This document shows positions 20,566-25,894 of a stretch of DNA of 64,000 bases, piece after piece; the stretch's first letter is position 1; every line of letters starts with the position of its first letter. The translations under genes and the position numbers were made by a program. Location of the stretch: assembly GCF_021353295.2 (NCBI RefSeq), contig NZ_CP120635.1, positions 2,311,501 to 2,375,500 on the forward strand. Direction: 5' to 3'. The DNA comes from Pseudodesulfovibrio thermohalotolerans (lineage in GTDB: Bacteria > Desulfobacterota > Desulfovibrionia > Desulfovibrionales > Desulfovibrionaceae). Below the pieces are notes generated by a model that saw only the letters and a list, made by a program, of their open reading frames with translations, searched no databases and was not told where the DNA came from.

Positions 20566-22701
20566 ATGGGTAAATACACCATCGGCATCGCGGGCAACCC
20601 GAACTGCGGAAAAACCACCATGTTCAACGCCCTGACCGGGGCACGGCAACACGTTGCCAACTGGCCCGGCGTGACCGTCGAAAAAAAGGTCGGGCACATC
20701 CACATGGGGGAAGATTCCATCGAGCTCGTGGATCTGCCCGGCACCTATTCCCTGACCGCCTACACCCAGGAAGAGTTGGTCGCCCGGAATTTCCTCGTGG
20801 ACGACCGGCCGCAGGCGGTCATCGACATCATGAACGCCGACGCGCTTGAACGAAACCTCTACCTCGCCGTCCAGATATTGGAACTCGGCGTGCCCCTGGT
20901 TCTGGGCCTGAACATGATGGACGAAGTGCGCAAGTCGGGCAAACGGATCGACAGCGCGCGCCTCGCGGCCCTTTCCGGCTGCACCGTGATCGAAACCGTG
21001 GCCCGGTCCGGCCACGGGGCCAAGGAGTTGCTGGCTTCCACTCTCGAAGTGGCCAAAAACCAGACGGGAGAATGGACTCCTCTGAACATCTCCTACGGCC
21101 CGGACCTCGACCCGGTTCTCGGCAAGATGGAAAAAATCATCGAAGAGGCAAAATTCCTGACCGACAAGGCACCTGCCCGCTGGACCGGAATCAAATACCT
21201 GGAGCGCGACGAGGACGTCATCGTCAAGGGCCGCATGGCCAACACCGCGCTCTCCGAACAGCTTGAAGCCATGGCGGCCGAAGTGGCCGCCCACACCAGA
21301 AAGACTCTCAACATGCGGCCCGACGCGCTTATCGCCGACTACCGCTACGGCTTCATCGCCTCCATGGTCAAACATGTGGTCACCTACCCCGCATCGAACG
21401 CGGACCGCATCAGCCGGTCCGACAAGATGGACAAGGTCCTGACCCACAAATTCCTCGGCCCCCTGATTATGCTCGGCATCGTCTACCTCATCTATCAGGT
21501 GACCTTCGCCGTGGGTGAAATCCCCATGGGCTGGCTTGAGGCCCTCTTCGGCTGGATAGGCGACACCGCCACAAACCTCCTGCCCGAAGGCTACCTCCAG
21601 TCCCTGATCGTCTCCGGCATCATTGACGGTGTGGGCGGCGTCATGGGCTTCGTGCCGCTCATCATGTTCATGTTCCTGATGATTTCCGCTCTGGAGGACT
21701 CCGGATACATCGCCCGCATGGCCTACATGCTTGATCGTGTCTTCAAGATTTTCGGACTGCACGGCACCTCGGTGCTCCCCTTCATCGTCTCCGGCGGCAT
21801 CGCGGGCGGCTGCGCCGTCCCGGGCGTCATGGCCAGCCGCACCCTGCGCTCGCCCAAGGAAAAACTGGCCACCCTGTTCGTGGCCCCGTATATGACCTGC
21901 GGCGCCAAGGTGCCCGTTTTCCTCATGCTGGCCGCGGCCTTCTTCCCCGAGGATTCGGCCACGGTCATGCTGATCATCACCCTGTCCGCCTGGGGCATGG
22001 CCCTGCTCGTGGCCCGACTGCTGCGCTCCACCGTCATCCGGGGCGCATCCACCCCGTTCGTCATGGAACTGCCGCCCTACCGTATGCCCACGCTCCAGGG
22101 CGTGCTCATCCACACCTGGGAACGGACCTGGGAGTACATGAAAAAGGCAGGTACCGTCATTCTCGGCATTTCCATCCTCATCTGGGCCATGATGACCTTC
22201 CCCGAGCTGCCCGCCGATCGCGTGGCCCACTATGAGGCGCAACGCGCCGCGGCCCAGACCGAAGAGCAGATCGCCGAAATCGACAACACCCAAGCCGAGG
22301 AAGCCGTCCGCCACACCCTGGCCGGTCGCATCGGCACCGCGCTCGAACCCATCTCCGAACTGGCCGGTTTCAACTGGCGCGTGAACATCGCCCTGACCGG
22401 CGGCTTCGCGGCCAAGGAAGTCATAGTCTCCACCTTGGGCACGGCCTACTCCCTGGGCGAAGTGGACGCCGAGGAATCCCAGCCGCTGTCCGAACGGCTG
22501 GTGGCCGACCCGGCCTTCTCCCCGGCCACGGCCATAGCCCTCATCATCTTCACCATGCTCTACGCGCCCTGCTTCGTGACCGTCGTCACCATGGCCCGCG
22601 AATCGAGCTGGCGATGGGCCGCCTTCAGCGTAGTCGGCTCCACCGGCCTGGCCTACGTCATGGCCGTCATCGGATACAACGTGTCCAAGGCGTTCCTGTA
22701 A
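20566..22701 (+). CDS. feoB: Ferrous iron transporter B
   Basis: 711 residues. The N-terminal GTPase domain has G1 GNPNCGKTTMFN (10-21), G3 DLPGTYSL and G4 LNMMDEVRKSG. A helical GDI-like region follows, and then the membrane part with two Gate domains (MGFVPLIMFMFLMISALEDSGYIARMAYMLDRV and FIVSGGIAGGCAVPGVMASRT, then IALTGGFAAKEVIVSTLGTAYSLGE). Conserved Cys residues in GGCAVPG and YMTCGAKVPVF are in place. It imports Fe2+ across the inner membrane under GTP control. Translation is linked to feoA, and a clear terminator follows. Confidence 0.97.
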   Translation: MGKYTIGIAGNPNCGKTTMFNALTGARQHVANWPGVTVEKKVGHIHMGEDSIELVDLPGTYSLTAYTQEELVARNFLVDDRPQAVIDIMNADALERNLYLAVQILELGVPLVLGLNMMDEVRKSGKRIDSARLAALSGCTVIETVARSGHGAKELLASTLEVAKNQTGEWTPLNISYGPDLDPVLGKMEKIIEEAKFLTDKAPARWTGIKYLERDEDVIVKGRMANTALSEQLEAMAAEVAAHTRKTLNMRPDALIADYRYGFIASMVKHVVTYPASNADRISRSDKMDKVLTHKFLGPLIMLGIVYLIYQVTFAVGEIPMGWLEALFGWIGDTATNLLPEGYLQSLIVSGIIDGVGGVMGFVPLIMFMFLMISALEDSGYIARMAYMLDRVFKIFGLHGTSVLPFIVSGGIAGGCAVPGVMASRTLRSPKEKLATLFVAPYMTCGAKVPVFLMLAAAFFPEDSATVMLIITLSAWGMALLVARLLRSTVIRGASTPFVMELPPYRMPTLQGVLIHTWERTWEYMKKAGTVILGISILIWAMMTFPELPADRVAHYEAQRAAAQTEEQIAEIDNTQAEEAVRHTLAGRIGTALEPISELAGFNWRVNIALTGGFAAKEVIVSTLGTAYSLGEVDAEESQPLSERLVADPAFSPATAIALIIFTMLYAPCFVTVVTMARESSWRWAAFSVVGSTGLAYVMAVIGYNVSKAFL

Positions 22702-22753: not shown

Positions 22754-22921
22754 ATTCCCCGCGTCCCCGCCGAAACGCCTCGCGGCGGACTGTATCCGAG
22801 ACAGCGTCAAAGCGAACAGCAAACAGCTTCCTAAGACCCGAGGCGGATGGACGAATCAGCGCCCGCCTCTTTCCTTTTCGGGAAGGATACCCTATTGTCC
22901 GCACGGCAAAGGAAACCGATC

Positions 22922-23887
22922 ATGACAAGACTCATCACCATACTGAAAACGATCTTCCGCGAGACCGCCGACGCCTGCCTGCAGTTGTTCAAGGTCATGA
23001 TTCCGATACTCATCCTGGTCAAGATTCTCCAGGAACTCGATCTCATCAAGTACCTGGCCTGGCCGCTTGAGCCCCTCATGGGGGTTATCGGGCTGCCCGC
23101 CGAGATGGGGCTTGTCTGGGCCACCACCCTCATCAATAATATCTACACCGGCATGATCGTCCTGGCGTCCTTCACCGGCGACGCCCCGCTGACCTCGGCC
23201 CAGGCCACGGTCCTCGGCGTGCTCATGCTCGTGGCCCACGGTCTGCCCGTTGAGACCGCCATCGCCGACCGCTCCGGCGCACGGTTCCTCTTCCAGTGCT
23301 TCGTACGCATGGCCGGGGCGTTCATCCTGGCCTGGCTGCTCCACCTGATCTACTCGGCCACAGGCGCCCTGAGCGGCCCGGCCGCCATGCTATTCCAGAC
23401 CGACGCGTCCGCCGGGACCGGCTCCCTCGCGACCTGGGCATTTGGACAGGCCAAGAACCTGCTGTCCATCTTCTGCATCATATTCGCCCTCATCTCCATC
23501 ATGCGCGTGCTCCGCGCCATCGGCGCAATCGACCTCATGAACCGCATCCTCCGGCCCGTGCTCAACCTCATCGGCATCGGTCCCAAGGCCTCGGCCATCA
23601 CCGTCATAGGCCTGACCATGGGACTCTCCTACGGCGGCGGACTCATCATCAACGAAGCGCGCAACGGCGTCCTGAGCAAGGAGGACGTCTTCTATTCCCT
23701 GACTTTCATGGGCTTGTGCCACTCGCTCATCGAAGATACCCTGCTCATTGCGCTCATTGGCGGACATATGAGCGGGGCGTTCTGGGGACGATTGATCTTC
23801 GCCGTGCTGGCCATGGCCCTCATCGTCCAGATTGTCCGCCGTGTCCCGGAACGGGCCCGCACAGCCTATCTGTGGGCCGAGAAGTAA
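22922..23887 (+). CDS. Nucleoside-recognition (Gate) domain membrane protein
   Basis: 321 residues from ATG 22922 (AAGGAAACC upstream). The longer frame to 22847 lacks a site. About eight hydrophobic segments hold two Gate/nucleoside-recognition repeats: ETADACLQLFKVMIPILILVKILQEL with LAWPLEPLMGVIGLPAE, and RVLRAIGAIDLMNRILRPVLNLIGIGPKA with MGLSYGGGLIINEARNG. The family is related to SpmA/SpmB and the FeoB gate. Transport function is likely but the substrate is unknown. Its position right after feoB is suggestive only. Confidence 0.75.
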   Translation: MTRLITILKTIFRETADACLQLFKVMIPILILVKILQELDLIKYLAWPLEPLMGVIGLPAEMGLVWATTLINNIYTGMIVLASFTGDAPLTSAQATVLGVLMLVAHGLPVETAIADRSGARFLFQCFVRMAGAFILAWLLHLIYSATGALSGPAAMLFQTDASAGTGSLATWAFGQAKNLLSIFCIIFALISIMRVLRAIGAIDLMNRILRPVLNLIGIGPKASAITVIGLTMGLSYGGGLIINEARNGVLSKEDVFYSLTFMGLCHSLIEDTLLIALIGGHMSGAFWGRLIFAVLAMALIVQIVRRVPERARTAYLWAEK

Positions 23888-23907
23888 CCCTCCACAAGGA
23901 GAACATC

Positions 23908-24291
23908 ATGTCTGACATCCAATTGATCCACACGGAGAAAGCCCCGGCCGCCGTGGGCCCCTACTCCCAGGCCACCGCCGTGAACGGCATGATCCACGTG
24001 TCCGGCCAGCTCGGCATCATCCCCTCCGAAGGCAAGCTGGCCGAAGGCTTCAAAGCCCAGACTCGCCAGGCCCTGAAAAACCTGAAGGCCATCCTCGAAG
24101 AAGCCGGTTCCTCCCTGGACAAGGTCCTCTCCGTGGACGTGTTCATCATGGACATGGGCCGCTTCGCCGACCTCAACGGCATCTACGCCGAGTTCTTCAC
24201 CGACCACAAGCCCGCTCGCGCCGCAATTCAGGTGGCGGGTCTGCCCCTTGGCGGCCTGGTCGAATTCAAATGCGTGGCCGTCATCGACTAG
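23908..24291 (+). CDS. ridA: RidA family enamine/imine deaminase
   Basis: 127 residues, start supported by AAGGAG six bases upstream. Matches the Rid/YjgF family: EKAPAAVGPYSQATAVNGMIHVSGQLGI, LKNLKAILEEAGSSLDKVLSVDVFIMDM and the substrate-binding Arg in KPARAAIQVAGLPLGGLVEFKCVAV. It hydrolyses reactive 2-aminoacrylate and related imines formed by PLP enzymes. The catalytic Arg and Glu positions are kept. It follows the Gate-domain gene by 20 bases. Confidence 0.93.
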   Translation: MSDIQLIHTEKAPAAVGPYSQATAVNGMIHVSGQLGIIPSEGKLAEGFKAQTRQALKNLKAILEEAGSSLDKVLSVDVFIMDMGRFADLNGIYAEFFTDHKPARAAIQVAGLPLGGLVEFKCVAVID

Positions 24292-24355
24292 TCAAACCAG
24301 CAAGCAGCGAAAACTTTACTTGACAGGCTCTCCGCAAAGTGGATACCTGAAAATC

Positions 24356-24430
24356 ATGCACAACATCACCGCCCGTTTCTTTTTCTTTTTTAGCTTTATC
24401 AGGAACGCCTGCGGTCTTGGTGTGCGCTAG
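24356..24430 (+). CDS. Phe-rich leader peptide of an attenuator (24 residues)
   Basis: The frame ATG 24356 to TAG 24430 encodes MHNITARFFFFFSFIRNACGL plus four codons, with Phe at residues 8-12 and 14. It closely recalls the E. coli pheA leader peptide ([15 protein letters not shown]). No strong Shine-Dalgarno is visible; GGA lies 13 bases upstream. Five of the six Phe codons are consecutive, so uncharged tRNA-Phe would stall ribosomes just before the antiterminator segment at 24407-24421. The Phe codons are mixed TTC and TTT, so they are not explained by a simple homopolymer. Its role as a sensor is inferred from the surrounding RNA structure. Confidence 0.75.
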   Translation: MHNITARFFFFFSFIRNACGLGVR

Positions 24431-24492
24431 TCTTTATTCAATAGGGATTCAAACCAAGAGGCCGCGGGCATAGTCCGCGGCCTCTTTTTTTT
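24407..24492 (+). promoter_or_regulatory. Transcription attenuator (terminator and competing antiterminator) upstream of aroA'
   Basis: The terminator is GAGGCCGCGG (24458-24467), loop GCATAGT, CCGCGGCCTC (24475-24484), then eight T's (24485-24492). An alternative stem pairs 24407-24421 (GCCTGCGGTCTTGGT) with 24453-24469 through 15 pairs, with one G-U and a two-base bulge. It uses most of the terminator's left arm. The 5' strand of this antiterminator overlaps the end of the Phe leader peptide. GCGGT at 24411-24415 can instead pair with ACCGC at 24368-24372 near the peptide start. Confidence 0.72.
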
Positions 24493-24531
24493 CGGGCCGC
24501 GCCGCAGCCGAAAGCAGCAAGGAGAAACACC

Positions 24532-25323
24532 ATGCATCTCGGAAAAGCCATTCGGATGGAACGCATCATGAACCGCAACAATGGCCGGACCATCGTGGTC
24601 CCCCTGGACCACGGCGTGACCGTCGGCCCCATCTACGGCATCGTGGACCTGCGCGACACCGTCAACCAGGTGGCCGACGGCGGCGCCAACGCCGTGCTCA
24701 TGCACAAGGGCATCCCCCGCTGCTCCCACCGCGCGGGCGGCAAGGACATCGGCCTTATCATCCACCTCTCCGCCTCCACCTCCCTTTCTCCACACCCCAA
24801 CGCGAAAACCCTGGTGGGTTCCGTCACCGACGCGCTGAAGCTCGGCGCGGACGCCGTGTCCGTGCACGTCAACCTCGGAGACGAGACCGAACCCAGAATG
24901 CTCTCGGACCTCGGCGCGCTCTGCTCCGAAGCTTCGGAATGGGGTATGCCCGTGCTGGCCATGATGTACGCCCGAGGCCCCAAGGTAGAAAACGAATACG
25001 ATCCCCAGGTAGTGGCTCACTGCGCCCGCGTGGGCGTGGAACTCGGCGCCGACATCGTCAAGGTCAACTACACCGGCGATCCCGAGTCCTTCTCCCGCGT
25101 GGTCGAGGGATGCTGCGTGCCCGTCGTCATCGCGGGCGGTCCAAAACTCGAAAGCGAACGCGACCTCGTCCAGATGGTCTACGACTCCATCCAGGCGGGC
25201 GGCAGCGGGCTTTCCGTGGGCCGGAACATCTTCCAGCACCCGACCCCGGCCAAGATCGTAGCCGCCCTCAACAAGGTCGTCCACGAAGACTGGGACGTCG
25301 ACGCAGCCATGGAGCTGTTGTAG
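24532..25323 (+). CDS. aroA': 2-amino-3,7-dideoxy-D-threo-hept-6-ulosonate (ADH) synthase, AroA' type
   Basis: 263 residues of the DhnA-type class I aldolase family, closest in pattern to the Methanocaldococcus MJ0400 protein: [45 protein letters not shown] and [23 protein letters not shown]. The Schiff-base lysine is K177 in DIVKVNYTG. The enzyme starts the DAHP-independent route to 3-dehydroquinate used by many archaea and by Desulfovibrio. A Phe attenuator precedes it, which supports an aromatic role over glycolytic aldolase. The DHQ synthase II partner is not in this window. Start ATG 24532 has GGAG upstream. Confidence 0.85.
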
Positions 25324-25585
25324 GCGAAACCGCCTGGACAGGGAGAAAGGGGAAGGAGGGATCCGGTGGATCGGGTTCCCCGTCCCCTCTTCTTTCCTCA
25401 ACTTTCCTGTAGCCGTACCACTGAGCGGCAGAGTATGGAACGCGCAGTCGTTTTGTTCGGTGTGATTTAAGTAGGAACGGTCGGCAGAATGAAAAAGCGG
25501 CTTATAGTGCCTGGCCTGTAGCGGAAAAAACATGAGAAGCCATCGCGATGGGCTCCGGTCGGACCGGCACGCGGCTGAAATGTGA

Positions 25586-25894
25586 TCAGCCGTCGAATTC
25601 GACCTGAACGGTGTCGAGATAGTGAGCCAGATTGTCCACGTGTCTTTCGATGGCGGCGGGATCGCGTTCAAGAGCGGCCAATTCGATGTCATAGCCTATC
25701 CTGCCCATCCCCTTGAACCCGTAACCGCTGCCCGTTCCGCGCGCCGTATGGCCCAACCGCGCCAGGGTATTGAAATCCCGGCCGTGCAGCGCGTCGCGCA
25801 TCAGTTCAAGATCCTGACGGCAGACGGCGAAAAAACGATCCAGCAATTCTTGCAGGTCGGACGGTATCCGTTCGACCTCCGGAGATTCGGGCAT
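25586..25894 (-). CDS. Histidine phosphotransfer (HPt) protein
   Basis: 102 residues, all helical, with the HPt phosphorylation motif LARLGHTARGTGSGYGF; the accepting His is H49. Such proteins relay phosphate between a hybrid sensor kinase and a response regulator in the cytoplasm. It is a stand-alone gene with a GAGGACC ribosome site, and its kinase partner is not adjacent. The C-terminal helix ends with DTVQVEFDG. Confidence 0.85.
   Translation of the reverse strand: MPESPEVERIPSDLQELLDRFFAVCRQDLELMRDALHGRDFNTLARLGHTARGTGSGYGFKGMGRIGYDIELAALERDPAAIERHVDNLAHYLDTVQVEFDG

Follow-up and report, generated by a model that had tools for sequence, protein, structure and literature searches.

Attenuation at pheL-pheA of Escherichia coli provides the classical arrangement for control by phenylalanine, in which a short, Phe-rich leader open reading frame (ORF) and a terminator that competes with an antiterminator precede a gene for aromatic biosynthesis. 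For the archaeal-type entry into aromatic biosynthesis, through 2-amino-3,7-dideoxy-D-threo-hept-6-ulosonate (ADTH) synthase, we know of no described control apart from a listing for D. vulgaris made in 2005. That listing, which goes back to the Merino website (PMC1173090, Table 7), places a putative attenuator before aroA'>aroB'>aroQ-pheA>aroF>tyrA>[trp]; nowhere does the paper use the words ‘leader peptide’. In Acholeplasma, the uORFC-13-1 motif comprises a Phe-coding upstream ORF before aroF, which encodes a DAHP synthase (PMC8632094), and in Sinorhizobium meliloti the trp attenuator RNA begins at the ATG of trpL itself (PMC7298713). The first-step isozymes AroF, AroG and AroH of E. coli are placed under separate Tyr, Phe and Trp control (PMC5343134).

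The window considered here, a stretch of 64,000 nucleotides from Pseudodesulfovibrio thermohalotolerans (contig NZ_CP120635.1, positions 2,311,501 to 2,375,500), carries a comparable element on its forward strand, which also bears the promoter, the aroA' gene and the RidA-family gene described below. The leader ORF, MHNITARFFFFFSFIRNACGLGVR, runs from an ATG at 24356 to a TAG stop at 24428-24430 (24356-24430; 24 codons), with its control codons at 24377-24397; the five consecutive Phe codons plus a sixth that had been described from the letters of this DNA alone (hereafter, the sequence-only reading) are indeed present, as codons 8-12 (24377-24391) and codon 14 (24395-24397). Downstream, behind a Shine-Dalgarno sequence AAGGAG (24519-24524), lies an aroA' gene (24532-25323), identified as an ADTH synthase gene by TIGR01949 (401.5 bits, cut-off 299.45) and by alignment over residues 2-261 with MJ0400 (2qjg; E 1.5e-96), which sets its Tyr146 and Lys177 against Tyr153 and Lys184 of MJ0400, residues that we take to be catalytic. 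The target had thus been named correctly as aroA', with the correction that it is one of three paralogs, stands alone and does not head a pathway operon. On the upstream side, a gene for FeoB (20566-22701; TIGR00437, 542 bits) is followed by one for a membrane protein (22847-23887) and then by a RidA-family gene (23911-24291; TIGR00004, 151 bits); we saw no link between these and the attenuator.

A run of Phe codons is, by itself, not improbable, since five-Phe-codon runs occur at seven separate sites in the 3.89-Mb, single-contig genome (eight rows, two of them overlapping), against nine for a reversed control pattern, and such runs exist elsewhere in the genome without any attenuator-like context. 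Both strands of the window together hold 429 distinct small ORFs that start with ATG and encode 8-50 amino acids, and the leader alone among them has a Phe run of five or more. What stands above chance is the combination of Phe run, reading frame, stems and conservation.

The terminator occupies 24456-24492, with a stem of 24456-24469 against 24473-24486 and a U tract at 24485-24492; RNAfold gives 14 pairs and a 3-nt loop, at -27.8 kcal/mol for 24445-24495. The eight T's previously reported are there, the first two of them doubling as stem bases, but the stem begins 25 nt after the leader stop rather than the 28 bases given earlier. When the 3' arm of the terminator is withheld, RNAfold pairs 24407-24421 (‘region 2’, the 5' arm of the antiterminator, within leader codons 18-22) with 24453-24469 (‘region 3’, the 3' arm, overlapping the 5' arm of the terminator), with 15 pairs, a 2-nt bulge and -30.9 kcal/mol for 24400-24472. 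As 24456-24469 is common to both structures they are mutually exclusive, which bears out the alternative 15-pair stem of the sequence-only reading. A possible pause or protector hairpin (‘1:2’; 24358-24425, -22.8 kcal/mol for 24350-24445) spans the leader ORF and, together with the probable promoter described below (24320-24347), is a feature that the sequence-only reading did not contain. A simple scan of 23800-25800 returned this terminator only; shuffled sequence yields a mean of 2.0, so that the scan alone provides no evidence.

The orthologs of this gene, which we term P1, were found in 33 of 36 genomes of the genus, the three that lack it (G008, G013, G019) being 81-87% complete. The stems were assessed on an alignment of the 33 P1 sequences against 500 shuffles that do not preserve relatedness, so that the counts overstate independence. 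For the terminator, 94.9% of cells are paired and five pairs show double changes, neither value being reached in any of the 500 shuffles; slid versions pair in only 35-61% of cells, whilst one of the five measures (further pair types) was reached by 472 of the shuffles. The antiterminator has 90.3% of cells paired and double changes in four of its 15 pairs, a number reached by five shuffles; the same stem slid by -2 also gives four double-change pairs, but with 42% of cells paired, and we regard its apparent covariation as modest. For the 1:2 hairpin the figures are 88.7% of cells paired and a number of double-change pairs that 59 of the 500 shuffles reach, and the support for this hairpin is poor. 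When region 2 is shuffled 100 times, no more than five versions pair with region 3 as well as the native sequence does in 31 of 33 P1 sequences and in all 35 of the second paralog, P2. Both alternative stems, terminator and antiterminator, are conserved, and the covarying pairs that comparison with relatives had been expected to reveal are present.

The same comparison finds a Phe-rich leader upstream of all 33 P1 loci, the weakest (L024) having four Phe codons and a longest run of two. An upstream ORF with at least six aromatic residues in ten is found at 32 of the 33 loci and in none of 330 dinucleotide shuffles, and on these grounds a chance ORF was rejected. Together the 33 leaders hold 223 Phe, 21 Tyr and 1 Trp codons. 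In the 32 of 33 loci with the motif, the distance from ATG to the core of region 2 takes seven values between 40 and 61 nt, all of them 1 modulo 3, whilst between the stop codon and the terminator core all spacings of 24 to 32 nt occur; a fixed phase on one side and a free spacing on the other are to be expected if the ORF is translated and the spacer after it is not. At one locus (L023) region 2 is divergent. A crude version of the frame test is clean for P1 (32/32) and P2 (34/34) and mixed for loci outside the genus (19/23) and for the symporter leaders introduced below (12/27); when an exact motif is used, agreement in frame rises to 24 of 25 for the symporter leaders. A looser pattern was set aside, as its alternatives do not share a starting base and its offsets were mixed.

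These observations bear on whether the structure is simply the terminator of ridA, with the Phe run a coincidence or low-complexity pyrimidine sequence. The RidA-family gene does lie just upstream on the same strand in the window and is found at 28 of the 33 P1 loci, a terminator after it would be ordinary, and five-Phe runs are not unusual in themselves. However, the element is kept at the five P1 loci that have no ridA in the examined flank, the stretch that separates ridA from the leader contains a conserved -35 box, the reading frame is maintained, as is an antiterminator strand for which a plain terminator has no need, and related elements precede other transcription units (a supraoperon and a symporter operon, see below). 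We consequently reject a plain ridA terminator, to which we would give only a very slim chance.

Instead, we propose that the window element is a classical pheL-type, ribosome-mediated transcription attenuator that would sense Phe, a reading to which we assign a probability of roughly 0.88. The element is real and conserved, and from its sequence features very probably functions as a Phe attenuator; the attenuation proposed in the sequence-only reading is supported by the comparisons above, and we infer its second part, control by the charging of Phe-tRNA. In this model, RNA polymerase would start some 0-2 nt 5' of the leader AUG, and a ribosome would load onto the bare AUG. With Phe-tRNA charged, the ribosome would reach the UAG at 24428-24430 and cover 24407-24421, such that 24456-24469 could pair with 24473-24486 and transcription would end at the U tract. 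With Phe-tRNA scarce, we suggest that the ribosome would wait on codons 8-14 and leave 24407-24421 free to capture 24453-24469, whereupon the terminator could not form and aroA' would be transcribed. Should the leader go untranslated, the 1:2 hairpin (24358-24425) may sequester region 2, making termination the default. The geometry of the ribosome footprint is taken from trpL and pheL.

The proposed start rests on the layout of the probable promoter, with TTGACA at 24320-24325 and GATACC at 24342-24347. This promoter was missed by a simple consensus promoter scan of 23800-25800; in the P1 alignments the TTGAC part of the -35 box is conserved, and the -10 box reads GATAAT or GATAAC in some relatives. 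In the window, 8 nt separate the -10 box from the leader ATG. The distance from the start of the -35 box to the ATG is 36 nt in 23 of 32 P1 loci (37-44 nt in the other nine), 36-37 nt in 27 of 35 P2 loci, 35-37 nt in all 28 symporter loci and 35-40 nt in 17 of 24 loci outside the genus; several outliers of 5-32 nt are taken for chance matches of a loose motif. A Shine-Dalgarno-like 4-mer at -16 to -4 was found for 2/32 P1, 0/35 P2, 3/24 outside-genus and 3/28 symporter leaders, as against 32/32, 35/35, 19/24 and 21/28 of the respective main genes (the 24 outside-genus loci of both counts include L118, which probably has no leader). Leaders that lack a Shine-Dalgarno sequence and place their ATG some 36 nt from the -35 box suggest that the mRNA is probably leaderless, beginning about 0-2 nt 5' of the AUG, a layout that would resemble that of S. 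meliloti trpL.

The genome contains three aroA' paralogs, P1 in the window, P2 (C1:1064558-1065340) and P3 (C1:3719962-3720741); three matches are present in 30 of the 36 genomes of the genus, and P1, P2 and P3 form three clades (FastTree, midpoint root, support values not considered). The leader of P2 (L031), MKTSIVTTAYFSNFYFWYWYSHARGLGRGAV, mixes Phe, Tyr and Trp codons and stands before P2, which heads the aroB'-pheA-aroA-tyrA-trp supraoperon. Behind P2 lie genes for aroB' (dehydroquinate synthase II), chorismate mutase-prephenate dehydratase and EPSP synthase; next comes a gene for a prephenate dehydrogenase-like protein, below family cut-offs, followed by ORFs that we read, by eye, as trpE, trpG, trpD and trpC. 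One mixed attenuator thus precedes genes for all three aromatic amino acids. Such a leader is found at all 35 P2 loci, every one of them keeping Tyr; in total, 128 codons specify Phe, 119 Tyr and 57 Trp. Its terminator has 98.2% of cells paired and three double-change pairs (reached by 2/500 shuffles) and its antiterminator 91.3% and six (27/500). aroB' lies downstream in 34 of 35 P2 loci and in none of 33 P1 loci, 32 of which cover at least 1.8 kb downstream. At P3, an ORF with at least six aromatics in ten was found at 0 of 33 loci, a looser cut giving a weak candidate at two. The three copies of aroA' therefore differ, P1 having a Phe leader, P2 a Phe, Tyr and Trp leader and P3 none. The upstream regions of P3 share a stretch near the start, TGTATTATGTG (L032 at 1900-2463, L095, L080, L100).

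A second of the five-Phe sites, at C1:2027901, lies within another leader, MQTPHNRFGFFFFFSFRFFRSACGFEVCV (L246:975-1064, corresponding to C1:2027874-2027963), with terminator and antiterminator strands of its own. Behind it come genes for two proteins. The first is a symporter small accessory protein (NF045580, 52.6 bits); the second is a sodium:solute symporter of the SSS family (L246:1304-2911), related to PutP/PanF and below every family cut-off. A search of 60 genomes for the symporter gave a match at E <= 1e-100 in 35, and a Phe leader is found at 28 of the 29 symporter loci read; L277 shows none, though L296, on another contig of the same genome, does, and L275 has too little upstream sequence. 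A strict terminator pattern is found at 17 of the 29. The 28 leaders hold 237 Phe, 12 Tyr and 1 Trp codons, and on the strength of these codons the symporter is a predicted Phe importer.

A covariance model, R1, groups these elements. From 96 aroA' loci, 88 leaders were extracted, L023, L034 and L054 having failed the region-2 pattern and five second copies of family f5 (see below) lacking a terminator of this kind. The model was built on an alignment of 48 of the 88, including P1 and P2 of the window genome and no symporter leader. Across this genome the model scored 79.2 bits at P1, 68.5 at P2 and 58.7 at the symporter, which lay outside its training set; the next match scored 33.6, and P3 was not among the matches. 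The search of this genome thus shows three aromatic attenuators that are related to one another, those of P1, P2 and the symporter. A wider aromatic regulon was considered and rejected: three of 55 rows are clear matches, and none of the 12 that were looked at among the 52 weaker ones (L282-L293) has an aromatic leader, one of the 12 being the opposite strand of the symporter element. At E <= 1e-6, matches occur in all 36 genomes of the genus, with exactly three in 26 and two in G020, G029 and G030 (no symporter match) and in G014, where the divergent P1 element (that of L023) was missed; the fourth match has the appearance of an ordinary terminator in both G028 and G016, and that in G001 is the opposite strand of the symporter match. 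A match adjoins the symporter in 31 of the 36 (coordinates matched by hand), and 140 of 150 genomes of the order have a match.

It might be argued that the P1 attenuator senses Phe plus Tyr, or general translation stress, rather than Phe specifically. One or two Tyr codons are present in 16 of the 33 P1 leaders (the 21 Tyr codons counted above), so that Tyr may contribute to sensing, and leaders elsewhere in the order are mixed. Set against this is the division of codons, with Tyr in all 35 supraoperon leaders and 57 Trp in that group, whereas Trp is all but missing, and Tyr scarce, in the leaders of P1 and the symporter; a sensor without selectivity would have no need of such a split. Tyr runs on stand-alone aroA' copies of Solidesulfovibrio-like genomes (described below) point the same way, and we consider a sensor of this less specific kind unlikely.

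That a protein or small molecule, and not a ribosome, selects the hairpin, in the manner of a riboswitch or of TRAP, is a further alternative, given that two stems which exclude each other do not by themselves reveal what is sensing. No Rfam family, riboswitch or leader, matches the window at gathering level; the best that was seen is a weak match to Phe_leader (RF01859; 21.2 bits, E 0.19, against a gathering score of 55), which means that the element is not a member of that sequence family. Moreover, control codons follow the downstream genes across the paralogs and the leader stays in frame, whereas a ligand sensor would need neither, and we hold this alternative to be exceedingly improbable. 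Many P1 leaders end in NACGLGV, and a conserved peptide end, together with the S. meliloti precedent of an attenuator whose leader peptide and RNA (peTrpL and rnTrpL) act in trans (PMC7298713), raises the thought that here, too, the peptide or terminated small RNA acts in trans and attenuation is secondary. Yet this peptide end is encoded by region 2, which is already constrained by RNA pairing, and related attenuators keep the pairing with different peptide ends; trans-action as the main function seems very unlikely to us, and we retain the Phe-sensing attenuator as the preferred reading.

Where the sequence-only reading had spoken of Desulfovibrio, the genus is in fact Pseudodesulfovibrio. 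Across the order, the leader most often mixes Phe, Tyr and Trp codons. An aroA' match was found in 23 of 24 genomes of the order outside the genus, each of the 23 having one aroA' with a mixed leader; more distant matches, at 43-49% identity, were left out of the comparison. The 23 mixed leaders contain 117 Phe, 73 Tyr and 26 Trp codons, in a tally that omits L118 and L123 (small ORFs without a terminator), and aroB' lies downstream in 22 of the 28 outside-genus loci. Five of these 28 are second aroA' copies of family f5, which have no leader; they share the motif TTGATTTTTG ... TAGAT. In a larger set, the best 80 matches in named genomes, an ORF with at least six aromatics in ten is present in 58 of the 77 loci with enough upstream sequence (1/770 shuffles), some of the 77 repeating loci already counted or being P3-type copies. 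Across the phylum, all 27 best-scoring loci, which are not a random sample, have such an ORF (3/270 shuffles), and aromatic leaders, as leader peptides alone, are also seen in Desulfobacterales and other orders. In Nitratidesulfovibrio and relatives (L162, L164, L165, L177) a mixed leader of the MLSTSATFTTAYRTNYYFWYFFSYGEARGRMERA type sits about 400-410 nt before aroA', with some 300 nt separating leader and gene, and at aroA' loci of more distant Desulfobacterota (L235, L236, L238, L240 and others) the aromatic leaders are of a different make, RGFYFSYYYF...CASTFKSP.

In the genomes compared in this respect, single-amino-acid leaders accompany stand-alone aroA' genes and mixed leaders accompany copies linked to aroB'. 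Genus g272 (G531) has all three elements, with a mixed leader at aroA'-aroB', MNTRIRNAFFFSFFFFRCACGLGVSL at a stand-alone aroA' and a Phe leader at the symporter, and in G356 a Phe-type leader is found on a stand-alone aroA', the aroB'-linked copy being mixed. In genus g16 (G272, G336, G450), which we call Solidesulfovibrio-like because its loci L214-L216 group with the named L137 and L139 in a second tree (see below), the second aroA' has a leader reading YYYYGY or YYYGY with a terminator (L297, L299, L300) and no aroB' in about 2 kb downstream (L317-L319), the other copy having a mixed leader and aroB'; similarly, the leader of L203 (Solidesulfovibrio magneticus MBC34) reads PYYYYG, with no aroB' within 1.5 kb downstream.

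In this second tree (midpoint root, support values not considered), the Phe-only copies, namely P1, L140, L309, L311 and L312, cluster together, next to L313 (F6Y2) and L152. The last of these, from Desulfovibrio sp. isolate Madre1, contains a tandem aroA' pair directly before aroB' and behind a mixed leader (L152:1501-3789), and is possibly an intermediate of the duplication that gave rise to the stand-alone copies. A Phe-type leader is also found on a Humidesulfovibrio copy (L163) elsewhere in the tree, a placement that hints at re-tuning on more than one occasion. We suggest that the P1 element most likely arose through duplication of a mixed-codon attenuator along with aroA', followed by loss of Trp and most Tyr codons, the direction being our reading of the series.

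Taking these strands together, we lean towards a model in which a Desulfobacterota attenuator sensing Phe, Tyr and Trp would gate the aromatic supraoperon, and in which, after duplication of the first gene, the replacement of codons would have re-tuned copies to a single amino acid, Phe in the case of the Pseudodesulfovibrio clade and Tyr in that of Solidesulfovibrio-like genomes. ADTH synthase would then come under isozyme-wise end-product control, as E. coli achieves with its feedback-sensitive DAHP synthases, the Phe-tuned copy of the attenuator would additionally drive a Na+ symporter with a predicted role in Phe import, and all would be read from leaderless mRNAs. On this evidence, codon changes appear to have altered what an RNA switch responds to, with its RNA pairing retained.

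The findings provide a concrete and easily tested control for the ADTH synthase route in a large group of sulfate reducers, together with a natural series on homologous genes (F/Y/W, F only, Y only and none); they name a candidate phenylalanine importer through the Phe leader on the symporter, and leaderless initiation on leader peptides could now be studied beyond Sinorhizobium. Our searches of the literature turned up neither the aroA' copies with a Phe-only or a Tyr leader, nor the symporter element, nor any mixed leader described from a sulfate reducer, although subscription papers (e.g. Vitreschak 2004, on proteobacterial attenuators) may mention them. The mechanism is textbook; the element departs from the known cases in the enzyme that it targets, in the way control codons are divided between paralogs, in the link to a symporter and in a start that is likely leaderless.

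The nearest model remains E. coli pheL-pheA, which the window element resembles in its Phe-codon leader ORF, its competing hairpins and its aromatic biosynthesis target, and from which it differs in that the target is ADTH synthase and not prephenate dehydratase, in the lack of a Shine-Dalgarno sequence and in belonging to a paralog series. The pairing of a Phe attenuator with an ADH synthase gene, put forward as new in the sequence-only reading, is in part anticipated by the D. vulgaris listing (PMC1173090) and by Acholeplasma (PMC8632094). The D. vulgaris attenuator is probably the same element as the mixed attenuator of P2 and its relatives; the listing gives an attenuator only, for the supraoperon copy, and not the stand-alone Phe copy or the symporter. 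The Acholeplasma motif likewise has a Phe-coding upstream ORF and a terminator ahead of the first enzyme of the pathway, but belongs to another enzyme family and another phylum, has a ribosome-binding site and has a U run that codes for at least one Phe. S. meliloti trpL (PMC7298713) shares a leader ORF at the extreme 5' end of the RNA and ribosome-mediated attenuation of one of several pathway operons, with the differences that its codons are for Trp, its target is trpE(G) and its host is one of the Alphaproteobacteria. Finally, whereas the DAHP synthases of E. coli are divided by feedback inhibition along with TyrR and TrpR (PMC5343134), the aroA' series concerns a different enzyme and carries the split in its leader codons.
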